64,000 nucleotides of DNA, from positions 26,955 to 90,954 of IMG/VR virus record IMGVR_UViG_3300036861_000806, one strand, 5' to 3'. This stretch comes from a virus. Every line of letters starts with the position of its first letter. Within the stretch, counting starts at the first letter, position 1. The position numbers were made by a program, and so were the translations under genes. Under the pieces are notes generated by a model. The model saw only the letters and a list, made by a program, of their open reading frames with translations. It made no database searches and was not told where the DNA came from. Positions 3,514-56,570 of this stretch are shown in pieces.

Positions 3514-5112
3514 TTAGTCCACGCGTCCGCGGGCGAGCGCGAGCTCGCGCGTGAGGCCAGCCAGAACCTGCCCGCGCAGGCCCGTCGCGATCTCAGTCAT
3601 GACGCCACGTATGTCGGCGGCCGTCAGGCCGCTTAGGGCGTCGTCGGGGTCGTGATAGGGAATTGCCGCCAGGTCGAACTCAACCTCGGCGTCGAAGCCG
3701 TCCAGATCGATCGCGCCGTCGTTCGCGCTGATCGCCTTCGCCACCGAGAGACTAGCCAGCGCCGCATCCACGGCGTCGCCGCCCGACGCGGCCTCGAACG
3801 AACCGTCGTGACTCCCGCAATGGCTCCGCGCGGCGGCAGCGGTCCAGTCATCCTTCGGGTACCGATACGCCTGCTCCTCCCACGCACCGCCGCTCTTCGG
3901 ATGGCCGAAGATAATCGAGTAGGTCTTGCCCTCGTGCTCGCGCGTCCCCCGGCGAAAGCGGTCATAACCATCTGGCGAGTGGAGTCGGCAGCTATGCTCA
4001 TTGGGGAACGGTTTCGCGATATCCTCGGCACCCTTGCCGCCATCTGACATTGGGCAGTCCGCCCCCTTCGGGCACTCTGAGGCGTCGCCCTTTGGGCAGT
4101 CGGCACCCATCGGACACTCGTCCATCGCTCCCGTCTCACCGGTAGCCTCCGGAGCGGCCTCGACCTGGGCGACGACCTCGCGGATCTTTGCGTCGGCCGC
4201 CTGCGCCGCATCGGCGGCCTCGCGGAGGCGACGCTCGTTCACGCCGGAGAGGACACGGCCGCGCTTGGTCATCGCGGCCTTGATGTCGTCGACATCGAAC
4301 GGAGGCGAGAAGGATATGGTCTGGCCCGGAGAGGAAAACGATGTCCCGGTGCTCAGCGGCGCCCAGCCAGCCCAGAGCTTGCGCACCGCCTCGGCCGTGC
4401 CCTCGACCCGGACTTCGGGGAGGATGACCTCGCCGATCCCGAGCCGGACCGTGCGCTCGGGGGCGCCGAGCCGATCAAGCACTTTCGCAGCCCACTCGCG
4501 GAGGGGCCCGATATCGACGCCCGCTGACCGCGCCTCGACGAGGCACTCCGCATTGGCAGGAATCGGCACCACACTGAATTCGAGGAGGGATTGCTCGAGG
4601 AAATCTACGCCGCGCCGTTCCTCGTTGTAGGCCATCTTCATCGGCTGGAAGCCGACCGACACGCCGGAAAGAAACCCCGCGCTCATCATGTCGAGGATCG
4701 TGTCGGCCATCGGGTTCATCCCGGCCGGTGTGAAGTCGATCCGCGCTTTGAGCCGCGCATCCTCGGCCCGAACGTTCACTCCACGACCGATTGGCAACGA
4801 ACGGTAATCGTGGAATGCGAGCACGACTGGATTGCGCCGGTATTCTTCAAGCCGCCATCCGGCCACGGTGATCTGATCGCGCTCGCGGTCGGTCGTCTCC
4901 GTGGAGATGACGACCGGGACAGACCGCTCAGGATCGCCGGCAGCCTTGGCCGGGAGTTCAGCCGTGTAGGCGGCTCGGACGATCAGGCGGTCGGGGCTGG
5001 CATTTAGTGCATCGGCGGTGGCGACGAGGGGGTCGGCGGACTTGACGCTACGGGCGGCGGCGGCGCGGTACTCCTCCGCCGTGACGATCATGCGCTGGCT
5101 CATCCGCTCCAC
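3514..5112 (-). CDS. Prohead protease with extended scaffold-like C-terminus
   Basis: 532 residues, much longer than the usual ~200. The N-terminal ~230 residues match the HK97 prohead protease (S78) pattern: VPVVISTETTDRERDQITVAGW, LAFHDYRSLPIGRG (catalytic His candidate) and a SVGFQP/SLLEFSVVPIPANAECL segment containing the nucleophile-region Ser. After it comes a coiled-coil linker, a Cys-rich tandem (CPMGADCPKG repeated around residue 330), then a domain beginning FPNEHSCRLHSPDGY that accompanies protease fusions in other phages. It processes and probably scaffolds the capsid. A start at M6 (MSQRM) is also possible. Confidence 0.92.
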   Translation of the reverse strand: MERMSQRMIVTAEEYRAAAARSVKSADPLVATADALNASPDRLIVRAAYTAELPAKAAGDPERSVPVVISTETTDRERDQITVAGWRLEEYRRNPVVLAFHDYRSLPIGRGVNVRAEDARLKARIDFTPAGMNPMADTILDMMSAGFLSGVSVGFQPMKMAYNEERRGVDFLEQSLLEFSVVPIPANAECLVEARSAGVDIGPLREWAAKVLDRLGAPERTVRLGIGEVILPEVRVEGTAEAVRKLWAGWAPLSTGTSFSSPGQTISFSPPFDVDDIKAAMTKRGRVLSGVNERRLREAADAAQAADAKIREVVAQVEAAPEATGETGAMDECPMGADCPKGDASECPKGADCPMSDGGKGAEDIAKPFPNEHSCRLHSPDGYDRFRRGTREHEGKTYSIIFGHPKSGGAWEEQAYRYPKDDWTAAAARSHCGSHDGSFEAASGGDAVDAALASLSVAKAISANDGAIDLDGFDAEVEFDLAAIPYHDPDDALSGLTAADIRGVMTEIATGLRGQVLAGLTRELALARGRVD

Positions 5113-5277
5113 CTCGGGCGTCGGGAGAGGCGAGGACGCCTCCGAGCGGTTCAGGGACCCGCCCGTGACCCTCGCCCCTCCACGCCCTGTGGAGCGAACC
5201 AGCGGTGCTACGTACTACGGTTGCGGACTATACCTCAAAGCCGGCAATGCGCCGGGAAGCGGTATATAGTAACTAGC

Positions 5278-26541: not shown

Positions 26542-27338
26542 TGCGCCTCTTCCGCCGGAAACACCCAGCCGGCGTAGTCGGCCGCACGGCGCACCGCGCG
26601 GCCCGTGCTAAGGATCGCGTCGCGCACGCAGGCGGCGGCCGCCGCCACGCCGACGCCCACGAGCGCCACCCCCAGGCCAACGTACCCATCGCTCAGGGCC
26701 ATCCAGGAGAAGCTGCTAAACAGCAGCAGCATAAAGACGGCGCCGATACCGCCGGCGCTCGGCGTCTCGAATTGGTAGCGCTTTCGGACGGCGAGTGCCC
26801 AGCGCCCCCGGCGGCTCCGAGACCGAGACGCGATGGCCTCGAACGGCTCCAGCGCCTCGGCCCAGCGGGCGAGCAGGAAACGCTGGCCGCCCCGCACGCC
26901 TACGAGGATCGGCGACAGCCCCGTCGCCGGGGCGCGGCGCAGCTCGGGCGTCCAGACCTCTAGCGCATCGAAGCTGGGACGCGCCTCCGCGATCGCGTCG
27001 CGCACGCGCCTCGGCACCGGCCACTCCAGGGAGGCCCACGCGCGCACGGCCTGACCGAACCAGATGCCGGCGTCGCGGTCTCGGTCGGTGTTGTAGCTCG
27101 ACGGATAGCGCCAGCGCCAGACCGCGAGCTCCGCGTCGGTCAGGAGGTGGCCGCCCACGCCCGCCAGCTGCCGCGTCCGCCTCGCAAGTGCGGCGAACCC
27201 CAGCTCGGTGTACTCCTCCACGTCGCGGTCGATGTCGCCGGGCGGCGCCGCCTGCGCGGGCATCGGGTCCGCGTAGATCTCCACGTTCCAGGGCTCGCCC
27301 GCGTCCCGCGCGACTAGTAAGGTCGAGGCATTCGTCAT
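26538..27338 (-). CDS. Phage membrane protein with two C-terminal transmembrane segments
   Basis: 266 residues from ATG 27338 (CAGGAGGAGCGG upstream, ATGA overlap). The soluble N-terminal ~195 residues contain WNVEIYADPM and a VWRWRYPSSYN segment; residues ~200-245 hold two adjacent hydrophobic spans (IGAVFMLLLFSSFSWMAL and VGLGVALVGVGVAAAAACV). The C-terminus is short and polar. It may anchor a complex at the inner membrane. No family recognised. Confidence 0.65.
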   Translation of the reverse strand: MTNASTLLVARDAGEPWNVEIYADPMPAQAAPPGDIDRDVEEYTELGFAALARRTRQLAGVGGHLLTDAELAVWRWRYPSSYNTDRDRDAGIWFGQAVRAWASLEWPVPRRVRDAIAEARPSFDALEVWTPELRRAPATGLSPILVGVRGGQRFLLARWAEALEPFEAIASRSRSRRGRWALAVRKRYQFETPSAGGIGAVFMLLLFSSFSWMALSDGYVGLGVALVGVGVAAAAACVRDAILSTGRAVRRAADYAGWVFPAEEAQ

Positions 27339-49590: not shown

Positions 49591-50910
49591 TCATGTGAGC
49601 ACCGACGGCGCCGTCCCCATCCCATTCCGCCACCGGAGCGCCGCCTCGACCGTGCGGCAGTCGGGATGCACGCCCTCGATGTGGAAGACGCCGATAGAGG
49701 GGTTCCGCATCTTGAGATAGGGCCGGACGCGCCCGTCGCCCAGATCGAGCGAGAGAAGCTCATACATGTCGCCTTGCCGATGAAGCACCTTGGCGCCCAG
49801 GGCATCGCACACCCGCTCGATCCCGATCTTCCGCACACGCTCACGCCGGATTTCCGCGTTCGTGTCCTTCAAGACGTCGCGGGGATCAAGCCGCTCGGCC
49901 GGCGTTTCTACCAACTCGCGCGGGACGGTCACCCCGTGCAATCGATAGATCCCCCACGCATCCGCGAACTGTAGGGCCATGCCGGTGTCGTTGTGGAGCT
50001 GGCCGCGTTCATCGCGTGTGAGCACTTTCGGGCGGTCGGAGACCATCACGAACTTCCGGTGTGGCCACCACCAACAGGCCGAGCGCGCGGTGTTCTCGTA
50101 GGCGATGGCACGGAGCCACATATCGCCCGGCAGATCCAAATGGCAGACCTCGCGGAAGAAACTGGCCATCACGGGGTCGGCGTACCAATACCCGCCACCG
50201 ATCCAGAACTGACCGCCAATGTAATGTGTATAGGCGCTGCGCACGGCTCTGTCCACGGCGCTGCGCACGGCGCTGTCCACGGCGCTGCCCACGGCGCTGT
50301 CCACGGCGCTGTCCACGGCGCTGCGCACGGCGCTGTACACGGCGCTGTCCACGGCGCTGTGCACGGCGCTGTCCACGGCGCTGCCCACGGCGCTGTCCAC
50401 GGCGCTGTCCACGGCGCTGCGCACGGCTCTGTCCACGGCGCTGCGCACGGCTCTGTACACGGCGCTGTCCACGGCGCTGTGCACGGCGCTGTCCACGGCG
50501 CTGCCCACGGCGCTGCGCACGGCTCTGTCCACGGCGCTGCGCACGGCGCTGTCCACGGCGCTGCCCACGGCGCTGTCCACGGCGCTGTCCACGGCGCTGT
50601 CCACGGCGCTGCGCACGGCTCTGTCCACGGCGCTGCGGCTGTCGCCGCGCGCCGGCATCCAGCCAGTGAGGAGCAACGACGCACAGGGCGCCGCGAAGGC
50701 CAGCACGAGCGGTGACGGCACACGCACGATCCGCTCCGGCTTCGGCAGATTCGCAAAGGCGTAGCATTCGAGCGCCGCCCGCTCGAACGTTGGCCAGTCG
50801 GCCTCCCCGGTCTGCAGCCCGATCGCGGTCCAGCGCTCGACCCATTCTCCGAAGCGGGCGCGTTCCGCCTCGGAGAGTGACGTCAGGCGCTTACGGGGTC
50901 GTGCCACCAT
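49591..50910 (-). CDS. DUF6745-like protein with 34 tetrapeptide repeats
   Basis: 439 residues. Residues 1-91 are a helical N-domain; 92-227 are 34 tandem x-x-A-V/Y units (mostly DSAV, RSAV, GSAV, DRAV); 228-439 form the conserved domain: GGQFWIGGGYWYADPVMASF, WWWPHRKFVMVSDRP, LHNDTGMALQFADAWGIYRL, RERVRKIGIERVCDALGAKV and RTVEAALRWRNG. This C-domain resembles DUF6745 proteins of phages and actinobacteria. The repeat probably forms a long amphipathic helix and is likely length-variable. Partner gene 50910-51218 is its usual neighbour. Confidence 0.8.
   Translation of the reverse strand: MVARPRKRLTSLSEAERARFGEWVERWTAIGLQTGEADWPTFERAALECYAFANLPKPERIVRVPSPLVLAFAAPCASLLLTGWMPARGDSRSAVDRAVRSAVDSAVDSAVDSAVGSAVDSAVRSAVDRAVRSAVGSAVDSAVHSAVDSAVYRAVRSAVDRAVRSAVDSAVDSAVGSAVDSAVHSAVDSAVYSAVRSAVDSAVDSAVGSAVDSAVRSAVDRAVRSAYTHYIGGQFWIGGGYWYADPVMASFFREVCHLDLPGDMWLRAIAYENTARSACWWWPHRKFVMVSDRPKVLTRDERGQLHNDTGMALQFADAWGIYRLHGVTVPRELVETPAERLDPRDVLKDTNAEIRRERVRKIGIERVCDALGAKVLHRQGDMYELLSLDLGDGRVRPYLKMRNPSIGVFHIEGVHPDCRTVEAALRWRNGMGTAPSVLT
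50230..50637 (-). repeat. In-frame 12-bp tandem repeat, 34 units
   Basis: Coding repeat of the DUF6745-like gene. The unit is close to GACAGCGCCGTG on the minus strand, with variants at the first codon (Asp, Arg, Gly, His, Tyr) and occasional Arg for Ser at the second. Because it is 12 bases, all three frames on both strands are open here. Confidence 0.92.
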
Positions 50911-51894: not shown

Positions 51895-52401
51895 TCAACG
51901 GGCGATCCCGCTGATACTCTCGCCGCCAGCCTGGAAAGCATCGATGACGCGCGCCTTGTCACCAACCGCAAGCTTTCGCTCTTGCGCGCCACCGCCGCGC
52001 TGTCTACCTTTCAACACCATGTCGCGCATGTTGTCAGTCTGGGTTCCTAGGAACAGATGGCTAGGCCGGACGCAGAGCATGTTGTCGCAGCGATGAAGAA
52101 TGGCCTGCCCTCCGGGGATCTCGCCGTATACCAAAAGCCACGCCACACGATGGGCGCCCTGATTCTGGCCCTCGAAGTAAAAGGCGCCGTAACCACAAGT
52201 GAACGCCGCCGCCAACCAGGGCCAGCACTCATCGCCGTCGCGTTGATCGACCTTGTTCCAGAATCTTTCTGAATGCCGCCCGCCCGACCCCGCCTCTCCG
52301 CCAAGAGAGTTAGATTGAGGGGCCGGACGGGCAGGGCTCGCCATCCTAGAGGGAATGACGGGCTCGGAACCATAGCGGCTGTAGGTCACGCACGCACTCA
52401 T
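51895..52401 (-). CDS. HNH homing endonuclease with truncated HTH tail
   Basis: 168 residues from ATG 52401 (ATGA overlap). RFWNKVDQRDGDECWPWLAA, YGAFYFEGQNQGAHRVAWLL, PGGQAILHRCDNMLCVRPSH and LFLGTQTDNMRDMVLKGRQR are the HNH homing enzyme pattern (H-RCDN-C-P-HL). The HTH at the end stops early after ESISGIAR, so DNA binding may be weakened. Free-standing in a run of small genes. Confidence 0.87.
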   Translation of the reverse strand: MSACVTYSRYGSEPVIPSRMASPARPAPQSNSLGGEAGSGGRHSERFWNKVDQRDGDECWPWLAAAFTCGYGAFYFEGQNQGAHRVAWLLVYGEIPGGQAILHRCDNMLCVRPSHLFLGTQTDNMRDMVLKGRQRGGGAQERKLAVGDKARVIDAFQAGGESISGIAR

Positions 52402-52604
52402 CGGGGCTCCGCCGACTCGCTCGCTTCCCTCAACAACTCGTTCGCCGCCTTCGCGTAGCATTCAGCCCCACACACCTCTCTGGCCCTGAACAGGTCGTGG
52501 CTATCCCCGTTGTCATGGACGACGAGCAGGAAGCGAAGCTCGTGGTATTTGCCGGGCATGAGATCGCCACATTGATCGCATCGACGCTCGACGGACTGGC
52601 TCAT
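52398..52604 (-). CDS. Small zinc-type protein
   Basis: 68 residues. RRCDQCGDLMPGKYHELRFL and AREVCGAECYAKAANELLRE: C-x2-C and C-x3-C flank a beta segment, like a split zinc finger. Coupled to neighbours by overlaps. Function unknown. Confidence 0.6.
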   Translation of the reverse strand: MSQSVERRCDQCGDLMPGKYHELRFLLVVHDNGDSHDLFRAREVCGAECYAKAANELLREASESAEPR

Positions 52605-54112: not shown

Positions 54113-54733
54113 CTACCTCGCCACGAAGTCACTGATGAGCGCCGGGGTTGCGGTATCGAAACCGCAGACGTCCAGCAATCGATCAGCTATGAGCCGACAC
54201 AGCGACACGAAGTAGCCCTCGCGCAGATCCGACTTCATCTTGTTGACGTCTCTATGAACCCACTGCACGTTGCCAGGCACGTACCCGAAAGAGTTGTCAC
54301 GACGATCCAGCGAGGCGTCGATTCCGTGAGTCAGCGGCAGACCTGTGTAGGCACATCGCCCGTCTTGAGCCCCCCATGTCTGCCATAGGGTTTCGGGCGT
54401 GACCTCAAACAAGAGGCCGCGCTTCGCCGCATCGCTCTCGATCTGCGTGAGATACACGCCCGTCAGATCGCGATAGCCTCTCCAGCGCGGGTTGTTTTCC
54501 CGAACCACGGCACACCGCAGACAACGTCTGCTACGCCGCAGGTGCGACAAGGTTGACGGCCCGCAGATATGCCCGCAAGTGGAGCAACACCACCGCCACA
54601 GATGGTGCCCATGGTCGTTTCGGCCGACGTACTCGTGAAGCGCGCCGGGCCCGATGGCCTCGCCGATCTCATGACCGCCTTGAGATAACTCGGCGACACG
54701 ATAGCGCCGACCCCGATTCCATGGAACCATCAC
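54113..54733 (-). CDS. HNH endonuclease carrying a Ro60-like C-terminal tail
   Basis: 206 residues, GTG start inside the Ro60 stop region. Zinc ribbon CCSTCGHICGPSTLSHLRRS with CLRC, then an HNH-type core TWGAQDGRCAYTGLPLTHGI, DASLDRRDNSFGYVPGNVQW and VHRDVNKMKSDL. The last residues DVCGFDTATPALISDFVAR match the end of the upstream Ro60 protein (DVVGMDTTTPSLIADF) at 12 of 16 positions. This suggests the nuclease gene inserted near the 3' end of the Ro60 gene, leaving or copying the old C-terminal codons at its own end. Probably a homing endonuclease. Confidence 0.85.
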   Translation of the reverse strand: MMVPWNRGRRYRVAELSQGGHEIGEAIGPGALHEYVGRNDHGHHLWRWCCSTCGHICGPSTLSHLRRSRRCLRCAVVRENNPRWRGYRDLTGVYLTQIESDAAKRGLLFEVTPETLWQTWGAQDGRCAYTGLPLTHGIDASLDRRDNSFGYVPGNVQWVHRDVNKMKSDLREGYFVSLCRLIADRLLDVCGFDTATPALISDFVAR

Positions 54734-56376
54734 ATCCTCGACCCGATAAAATCAGCAATGAGCGACGGCGTAGTCGTGTCCATACCGACTACGTCGAGCA
54801 TGCCCGCATCGTTCGGGTCAGCGATCGTGAATCCGTTGGACACCATCGCGACGACGGCGAGCTTGGCGGAGATACCCGTCTCGCGGCGGTACTTCGTGAG
54901 CGCCTGTGACGGGTGCATCGCGCCAGCCCATGTCTCCGAGTCCGTCAGGACGACGAATCCGTCAGCGGCGAGCTTCTGCTCCAGCGCCCACAGCATCGGC
55001 AGCGAGCAGTCGGTGCCGCCGAACGGGAGGCTCGAGACGACGCGCACCGCATCGGCGAGCCGCTGTTTGGGGCTGATGGGTAGCGGCCGGAACTCCGTTG
55101 CGAATCCCATGATGACGTGATTCGGCTCACGGGCCGCCGTGACGAGGGCGAGGGCGGCGCTCGCGTCTCGCGGTGTCAGGCCCGGTACGCCCGCGATGGC
55201 CCCGCCGCCCATGGAGCCGGACACGTCCAGCGCCAAGACGTAGCGCTTGCCCGTGATCGGCACATTCTCGAACGCGGTATAGAACGCGGCGTCAAGGGCG
55301 TCGATGATCTGGCTGACAGGCGCCCAGGTCAGCGAGCCGCGCTCGCCGTGGCCCTGCGCATAGACGCGCTGGGCGGACAGCAGCGCGATCGGGTGCAGTC
55401 GCGAGCGGCGAATCCGCTCCTCGTTGCCGAGCTCGCGGACCACATGCGCGACCGCCTCGCTCATCGGAGCCAGCAGGCCCACCGCCGTCATCTTGGCGAG
55501 ACTGCGAACCATTGCCGTCATCGGCATTCGCTCCAGCAGCGCCGCCCACACGTCGGCTTGGTTCAACATCTCGGGCGGCACAACTTCGCGCGGGAGATCG
55601 TGCTCGCGGATCAGGGCGCACAGACGCTTGACATCCAGCCCGGCGGTGATCTCGTCGAGCGCGGCAACCAGGGGGTGCGGGGCGACAGGCTCGAGGAATC
55701 GCCGATAGGGCGCAAGCCGGACCCCCTTCTTGGTCCGCTGCTCTTCGGCGCGGAGATCCTTCGATCCGGTGAGCCACCGAAAGAGGGCCTGATGCTCGGC
55801 GCTCGGCGGGGTGACGTGCGCGAGCCGCAGGAGGTCAGCATGGGTCCAGCCGTCGCGCTGACGGTACTTGATGGCCTGATAGACGACGTGATCGATCTCG
55901 GCTGAATACCACCCCTGCACGGCGCGGCGCAGTCCCCGACCCCATCCCCGGAATGCCTGCACCGCTTGCGCGAAATGGAACAGATGCGTCCCGATCCGGC
56001 AGACTTTGGGCATCGCCTCGAATGCCACCGCCTTCGTCGCTGAATCGCCGAGCGCCGCCGCCAGGGCGAGGGCGAAGATGGCGGGGTCGTTCTTCGGGGC
56101 CCGACCTGCCGTGGAGACCTCCACGATACGGCGCACCGCGCGCGGGCCATCGGTCTGAATGCAGCGCGTGACGGCTGCGGCGTTCTCCTTCGTCAGCTTC
56201 TTCTCTGAGGCGTAGTACGTCGGGCCCTCTGATCCGAGAATCAGAAAGCGGTCGAGCCGTGTCCAATCATCCACCGCCCACGTAAAACCACCCGCGCTGT
56301 TCGGAACCTGCGCGGTGCCGGGAATCGGCTCGCTCTGGGGCGTGGTCCGTGTCGAGACATGCTGGCTGTAGTCCAT
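54730..56376 (-). CDS. rsr: Ro60/TROVE-domain RNA-binding protein (Rsr-like)
   Basis: 548 residues from ATG 56376 (GAGGGAAACC upstream). A TROVE HEAT-repeat ring (~25-370) includes EGPTYYASEKKLTKENA, AIFALALAAALGD, HLFHFAQAVQAFRGWGRGLR and KYRQRDGWTHADLLRLAH. A von Willebrand A domain follows with the MIDAS YVLALDVSGSM (D384-x-S-x-S), GGTDCSLPMLWAL and VVLTDSETWAG. Ro60 binds misfolded RNA ends and Y RNA and can tether nucleases. A YrlA-type RNA lies just upstream on the same strand. Confidence 0.95.
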   Translation of the reverse strand: MDYSQHVSTRTTPQSEPIPGTAQVPNSAGGFTWAVDDWTRLDRFLILGSEGPTYYASEKKLTKENAAAVTRCIQTDGPRAVRRIVEVSTAGRAPKNDPAIFALALAAALGDSATKAVAFEAMPKVCRIGTHLFHFAQAVQAFRGWGRGLRRAVQGWYSAEIDHVVYQAIKYRQRDGWTHADLLRLAHVTPPSAEHQALFRWLTGSKDLRAEEQRTKKGVRLAPYRRFLEPVAPHPLVAALDEITAGLDVKRLCALIREHDLPREVVPPEMLNQADVWAALLERMPMTAMVRSLAKMTAVGLLAPMSEAVAHVVRELGNEERIRRSRLHPIALLSAQRVYAQGHGERGSLTWAPVSQIIDALDAAFYTAFENVPITGKRYVLALDVSGSMGGGAIAGVPGLTPRDASAALALVTAAREPNHVIMGFATEFRPLPISPKQRLADAVRVVSSLPFGGTDCSLPMLWALEQKLAADGFVVLTDSETWAGAMHPSQALTKYRRETGISAKLAVVAMVSNGFTIADPNDAGMLDVVGMDTTTPSLIADFIGSRM

Positions 56377-56399
56377 GGTTTCCCTCAGTGTGTTCGGCG

Positions 56400-56570
56400 C
56401 GGATGAAGAATTGCCCACCGGCGAAGCGCTTGCGCGCCCTTTGCTCTACCAGACTGAGCTACGTGGCTATCCGTGGATAGCCGCGACCGGAATCGAACCG
56501 GTGCCACAAGAGAACCGGCGAACGCCGACCCGAGCCGAGTTACAGAACACGCGACGGATGAAGGATCGCC
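56400..56570 (-). ncRNA. YrlA-type Y RNA with circularly permuted tRNA-like module
   Basis: Minus strand, read 5'-3': T-arm ACCGGTTCGATTCCGGT (56502-56486, perfect 5-bp stem, loop TTCGATT); a 10-bp acceptor-like helix (56485-56476 with 56471-56462, one mismatch) closed by tetraloop CACG; TA; D-arm GCTC-AGTCTGGTA-GAGC (56459-56443) with the conserved GG. T-arm, acceptor and D-arm are thus in permuted order, as known for bacterial YrlA RNAs that mimic tRNA. Flanks CTCTTG and CAAAGGG can pair as the next stem. Ends are approximate. It lies 67 bases ahead of the Ro60 start. Confidence 0.85.

Follow-up and report, generated by a model that had tools for sequence, protein, structure and literature searches.

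A likely intronless homing element that rebuilds the 3' end of the Ro60 gene (rsr) in phages

Results

The rsr locus and its HNH endonuclease gene

We analyzed a 64,000-nt stretch of viral DNA (positions 26,955 to 90,954 of IMG/VR record IMGVR_UViG_3300036861_000806), hereafter called the window. Its rsr gene (54730..56418, minus strand) encodes a protein of up to 562 amino acid residues, which matched TROVE (1.1e-45) and vWA_Ro60 (1.2e-61) in Pfam and Ro60 structures in the PDB (1yvp, 9e-123; also 2nvo). Directly upstream of rsr, a local search revealed a YrlA-type Y RNA (RF02553; 56415-56528, minus strand) with 43.5 bits and E=1.4e-8, a score that does not reach the gathering score of 69. 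Having a Y RNA partner in addition to its TROVE and vWA domains, the gene is Ro60/Rsr. At another viral locus, L001, a tRNA-like stretch similar to YrlA was observed downstream of rsr, near 4800-4900.

An HNH endonuclease gene (54113..54730, minus strand; PHROG endonuclease families, 2e-19) follows rsr. The ATG at 54730, which lies in a TGATG overlap with the TGA stop of rsr, is the more plausible start, and a GTG start that extends the open reading frame (ORF) to 54113-54733 is also possible. rsr is uninterrupted up to its normal C-terminus and the HNH start sits on its stop codon; the HNH gene is not within a self-splicing intron or an intein. The same overlap of HNH start and rsr stop was found in L001, which suggests that the two genes may be translationally coupled. 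The HNH core residues were invariant across eight relatives, and the window protein is a nuclease with an intact catalytic core and predicted activity. Its predicted structure resembled PacI, Gme HNH and Cas9 HNH, all weakly (E 1e-3 to 1e-2). About 1.7 kb downstream, the window carries a second, unrelated HNH_3 endonuclease gene (51895-52461, minus strand; Pfam HNH_3, 1.8e-14). Further along, an ORF at 49591-50910 contains many near-identical repeats in a row (AVDSAVRSAVD...), and several frames are open there on both strands.

The HNH protein ends with a second Ro60 C-terminus

The initial annotation had proposed that the HNH C-terminus is a second copy of that of the adjacent Ro60, and this was confirmed by three comparisons. 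The HNH tail LDVCGFDTATPALISDF and the Ro60 end LDVVGMDTTTPSLIADF were identical at 12 of 19 residues and 37 of 57 nucleotides. Positions 146-165 of the 165-position Pfam profile vWA_Ro60 (PF25045) matched HNH residues 184-203, although the match stays under the gathering cut-off (E=0.0084 with 24,736 models scanned). A profile made from the tails of 152 other Ro60 proteins, with the window left out, scored 36.9 bits against the HNH tail (E=9e-8 at Z=1e6), while chance ORFs reached approximately 9 bits. Among approximately 27,500 ORFs, only one non-Ro60 ORF besides the window HNH exceeded 10 bits, that of locus L099. Third codon positions were identical at only 8 of 19 sites, and with 12 of 19 residues conserved, this indicates that the two tails are old relatives and not a recent duplicate.

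These features divide the region into three parts, all on the minus strand. The putative displaced native rsr end with its stop codon (LDVCGFDTATPALISDFVAR stop) occupies 54113..54175 and forms the HNH C-terminus in frame, as indicated by the profile matches, by GC content at third codon positions (GC3), and by its absence from HNH relatives. The current rsr end (LDVVGMDTTTPSLIADFIGSRM stop), at 54730..54798, is probably element-borne; this assignment is based on composition and on 20 of 57 nucleotides that differ from the displaced copy. The spacing of the two equivalent tail positions points to an inserted unit of approximately 623 bp at 54176..54798, comprising the replacement rsr end and the HNH body.

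The best matches to the window HNH were 43-55% identical and came from eight Streptomyces phage records, which represent seven phages of the Stanwilliamsviridae (LukeCage occurs twice). In the regions inspected, the HNH gene lay directly behind the Ro60 gene in all seven, and none of their HNH proteins carried a Ro60-like tail. Distant HNH relatives in viral contigs neither adjoined Ro60 nor carried the tail. The tail had been interpreted as a trace of insertion, a reading that would be contradicted by HNH relatives outside Ro60 loci sharing the C-terminus or by Ro60 relatives lacking the motif. Neither was found: HNH relatives outside Ro60 loci were without the tail, and 170 of the 172 Ro60 ORFs examined had the motif. 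ORFs of approximately 60-70 amino acids were observed behind the HNH gene, inside the inserted unit, in Streptomyces phages (L378 2716-2916, L008 4527-4742, L009 4476-4691, L010 4524-4742); it is possible that they are cargo.

A Ro60-like tail could also be a working domain of the nuclease, kept by selection for docking to Ro60 or YrlA or for folding. In favor of this, the window tail is still open and in frame, and the predicted structure shows a helix at residues 197-204. However, all relatives of the window HNH stop short of the tail, and model confidence drops from approximately 73 to 47 across residues 181-205. Moreover, the corresponding copy lies behind a stop codon in locus L065 and behind a second ORF in phage MeganTheeKilla. 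We therefore consider a working domain very unlikely; the tail is probably without function for the nuclease.

Isolate phages with and without the HNH gene

Ro60 tail matches were found at 332 places in 331 isolate phage records, which amounts to a single extra copy of the tail. Close relatives differed in the presence of HNH at one site: it was present in LukeCage, Kenrey and MeganTheeKilla, and absent from StarPlatinum, Phredrick and Gilson, respectively. In MeganTheeKilla, a different rsr 3' end, the HNH gene and a small ORF are followed by a displaced 71-nt copy, which was 100% identical to the 3' end of the HNH-free Gilson rsr, stop codon included. In Kenrey and LukeCage, the insertion joins cleanly at the native stop.

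The rsr genes of Kenrey and the HNH-free Phredrick were 98-100% identical until the last two 60-nt windows, where identity fell to 0.88 and 0.68. Jada and Gilson showed the same pattern (98-100%, then 0.82 and 0.73). Between MeganTheeKilla and Gilson, the divergence spanned the last 300 nt, with identity falling from 0.83 to 0.67. In the control pair of HNH-free phages, Phredrick and Gilson, the last two windows retained identities of 0.97 and 1.00. This loss of identity at the rsr ends of HNH-bearing phages indicates that these ends are foreign. Thus, HNH is present or absent at the same site in close relatives, and the flanking rsr end is co-converted with it.

Between Jada and Patelgo, the rsr body was 0.80-0.90 identical, whereas the tail (0.93-0.95) and HNH (mostly 0.90-1.00) were closer, indicating that tail and HNH travel together. 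On the other hand, the HNH cores of Kenrey and MeganTheeKilla were 97-98% identical while their rsr tails were only 65-70% identical; the tail is therefore not always part of the recent history of the nuclease. In these two phages, the target may have been recoded against self-cleavage, or the tail may have been exchanged separately.

The two same-strand tail copies that flank the HNH body could also have arisen by local tandem duplication of the rsr 3' end, through slippage or unequal recombination, with HNH between them by chance and later divergence of the copies. The MeganTheeKilla comparison argues against this: the displaced copy equals the sister allele, the in-frame rsr end differs by approximately 33% over the last 60 nt, and the difference extends back 300 nt. 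In addition, the in-frame copy is the compositional outlier in L065 and L099, and the displaced copy of L099 retains consensus Ro60 residues although the nuclease there is dead. We regard tandem duplication as extremely improbable.

Direction of the replacement

The initial annotation had left two alternatives, namely that the original rsr end became the nuclease tail or that rsr was rebuilt with an end carried in by the element. Both appear to have occurred together. Alignment of rsr 3' ends from related phages with and without HNH demonstrated this for MeganTheeKilla by comparison with Gilson: in the former, a foreign end accompanies HNH and the native end is displaced; in the window, composition points in the same direction, more weakly.

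By GC, the last 21 codons of the window rsr ranked third among 542 windows. When the last 18 codons of the current rsr were ranked by low GC3, the positions were 33 of 545 in the window, 1 of 515 in L065 and 3 of 524 in L099. The displaced copies had GC3 values of 0.80, 0.71 and 0.71, respectively, close to those of the rsr bodies (0.82, 0.74 and 0.78). The Ro60 tails of relatives were closer to the displaced copy than to the current end in four of four cases, clearly in L065 and weakly in the window, where the scores were nearly even (54.6 vs 52.5). These results suggest that in L065, L099 and the window, rsr now ends in sequence of foreign composition, and that the displaced copy is probably native. 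The search for a close HNH-free sister of the window phage gave Ro60 relatives of approximately 60% identity at best, and the direction in the window therefore rests on a modest compositional signal.

The reverse arrangement, in which the nuclease carried the tail over from an earlier host gene and the window rsr has kept its native end, would fit this modest difference and the closest tails, which give no clear decision. However, the direction is opposite in the sole close-sister case (MeganTheeKilla/Gilson), and the composition of the window, L065 and L099 agrees with that case; the reverse arrangement is thus unlikely. Given the direction proved by MeganTheeKilla, and the composition, the most economical interpretation is that rsr formerly ended in what is now the HNH tail and received its present end along with the nuclease.

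Insertions at other rsr loci

In a survey of viral rsr, 5 of 121 distinct genes had an HNH_3-type match within 1 kb (118 of the 121 had at least 600 nt of downstream sequence). Two of these five loci, L065 and L099, retained a displaced tail. In L065, the nuclease ends with HGKSWRDH and a stop codon, and the displaced tail (VVGFDASVPQAIREFVV stop) lies right behind. In L099, the tail is fused to a truncated, frameshifted nuclease (KSWTH-VGFDTSAPAVLADWLRE stop). Both nucleases belong to HNH_3 and are unrelated to the window HNH family. In the window and MeganTheeKilla, the first residue of the displaced copy is the L or M of GM(L/M)D; the L065 and L099 copies start two to three codons further on. 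Nearly the same codons of rsr thus appear to have been entered by at least two unrelated HNH families. Among 80 bacterial genomes, no HNH of either family was found within 1 kb of rsr, nor was a second tail.

Directly after rsr in L331 (approximately 4620-5130), we observed a composite nuclease-like ORF that combines an HNH_3 helix-turn-helix end with a cysteine-rich region, the latter endonuclease VII-like by eye. A Cys codon (TGT/TGC) near the presumed cut, at the DVV positions beside it, was seen in approximately 8 of 12 HNH-bearing rsr ends vs approximately 5 of about 180 others, counts that ignore relatedness (loci L008, L378, L379, L380, L001, L065, L078 and L099). It is possible that this codon protects HNH-bearing rsr from self-cleavage.

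Discussion

Taken together, the sequence evidence makes it very probable that the locus is an intronless homing element within the rsr 3' end, which rebuilds that end and whose nuclease sometimes receives the displaced native end as its C-terminus. The presumed target is an rsr without insertion: the nuclease would recognize its highly conserved GM(L/M)D-xx-GFD codons and cut both strands there, presumably at or close to GGAATG/ATGGACTTC in the HNH-free allele. An HNH-carrying rsr would then serve as the repair template, so that the last codons of the donor would be copied together with the HNH gene; the expected sequence outcome is seen in the isolates. The right-hand join would fall close behind the HNH stop or the cargo ORF, either cleanly, as in Kenrey and LukeCage, or leaving the rsr end of the recipient behind, as in MeganTheeKilla, L065, L099 and the window. 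rsr would remain full length with the donor end, and since a complete end comes with the element, the target gene would keep its function. The native end, displaced together with its stop codon, would in the window and L099 be translated as the nuclease C-terminus.

Integrative elements at tRNA genes also rebuild a 3' end, bringing with them the substitute for the part that they displace. They differ in using a site-specific integrase and att sites instead of an endonuclease, and their target is an RNA gene.

The closest known systems are fungal mitochondrial mobile ORFs. In Glomus atp6, atp9, cox2 and nad3, a mobile ORF brings a replacement C-terminus, and the native end left behind matches an uninvaded relative; the first such case was Allomyces macrogynus atp6 (PMC3630166). 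C-terminal duplications of cob and atp6 (PMC6279837) and cases in atp6 and cox2 (PMC4019555) have also been reported. As in phage rsr, a nuclease gene lies in the 3' part of a coding gene, the foreign in-frame C-terminus is element-borne, and the displaced native end downstream is most like the uninvaded sister allele. This arrangement of a foreign in-frame C-terminus with a displaced native end behind the nuclease was found in MeganTheeKilla, L065, L099 and the window. The fungal nucleases are LAGLIDADG or GIY-YIG enzymes in mitochondrial genes, whereas those of phage rsr are HNH, the inserted unit is only approximately 0.6 kb, and the displaced end is fused in frame as the nuclease C-terminus. 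The rsr element thus works like the fungal elements but is not assigned to their group by descent.

Among phages, the T4-like group has free-standing homing endonucleases (seg and mob genes), which occupy intergenic positions or divide a gene in two. They resemble the rsr insertions in being intronless, beside a conserved gene, variable in presence, and associated with flank co-conversion; the available excerpt of that account does not mention a replaced C-terminus with a displaced end (PMC2988022). Skunavirus HNH endonucleases are likewise free-standing, at fixed genome positions, and linked to marker exclusion, and the available excerpt of their description does not report duplicated host-gene ends (PMC12724721). 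In the open-access literature, we found no phage or rsr precedent for the swapping of gene ends.

The entry of homing endonucleases into coding genes is attributed to an accompanying intron or intein, or to splitting of the gene. The rsr insertions represent entry without either, with the host gene left whole, and the displaced end means that a nuclease can acquire a new C-terminal segment in one step. Isolates of Streptomyces phages are at hand in MeganTheeKilla, Kenrey and Gilson, which makes the mechanism accessible to laboratory testing.

In our judgment, the odds are about even that the swapping of gene ends is a general and so far overlooked route by which phage HNH elements enter coding genes, carrying a replacement 3' or 5' end and sometimes taking the displaced end into the inserted protein. 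The flanks of other HNH genes were compared in short windows to find duplications. Two further loci, L255 and L219, suggest that the process is not restricted to Ro60; they are leads, because each is a single metagenomic contig without an HNH-free sister. In L255, the HNH_3 gene runs antisense to a host gene whose product resembles tail completion protein gp17 (Pfam E=0.0012, below the curated cut-off), and two copies of the 5' end of the host gene flank the HNH_3 gene (score 147; null maximum 93). A tblastn search with the start of this host gene gave no match in isolate phages and only L255 itself among viral contigs. In L219, a C-terminal segment (VDGTGLIS-PVEGLA) occurs on either side of an antisense HNH_3 gene, and one of the two copies is fused to a small ORF.
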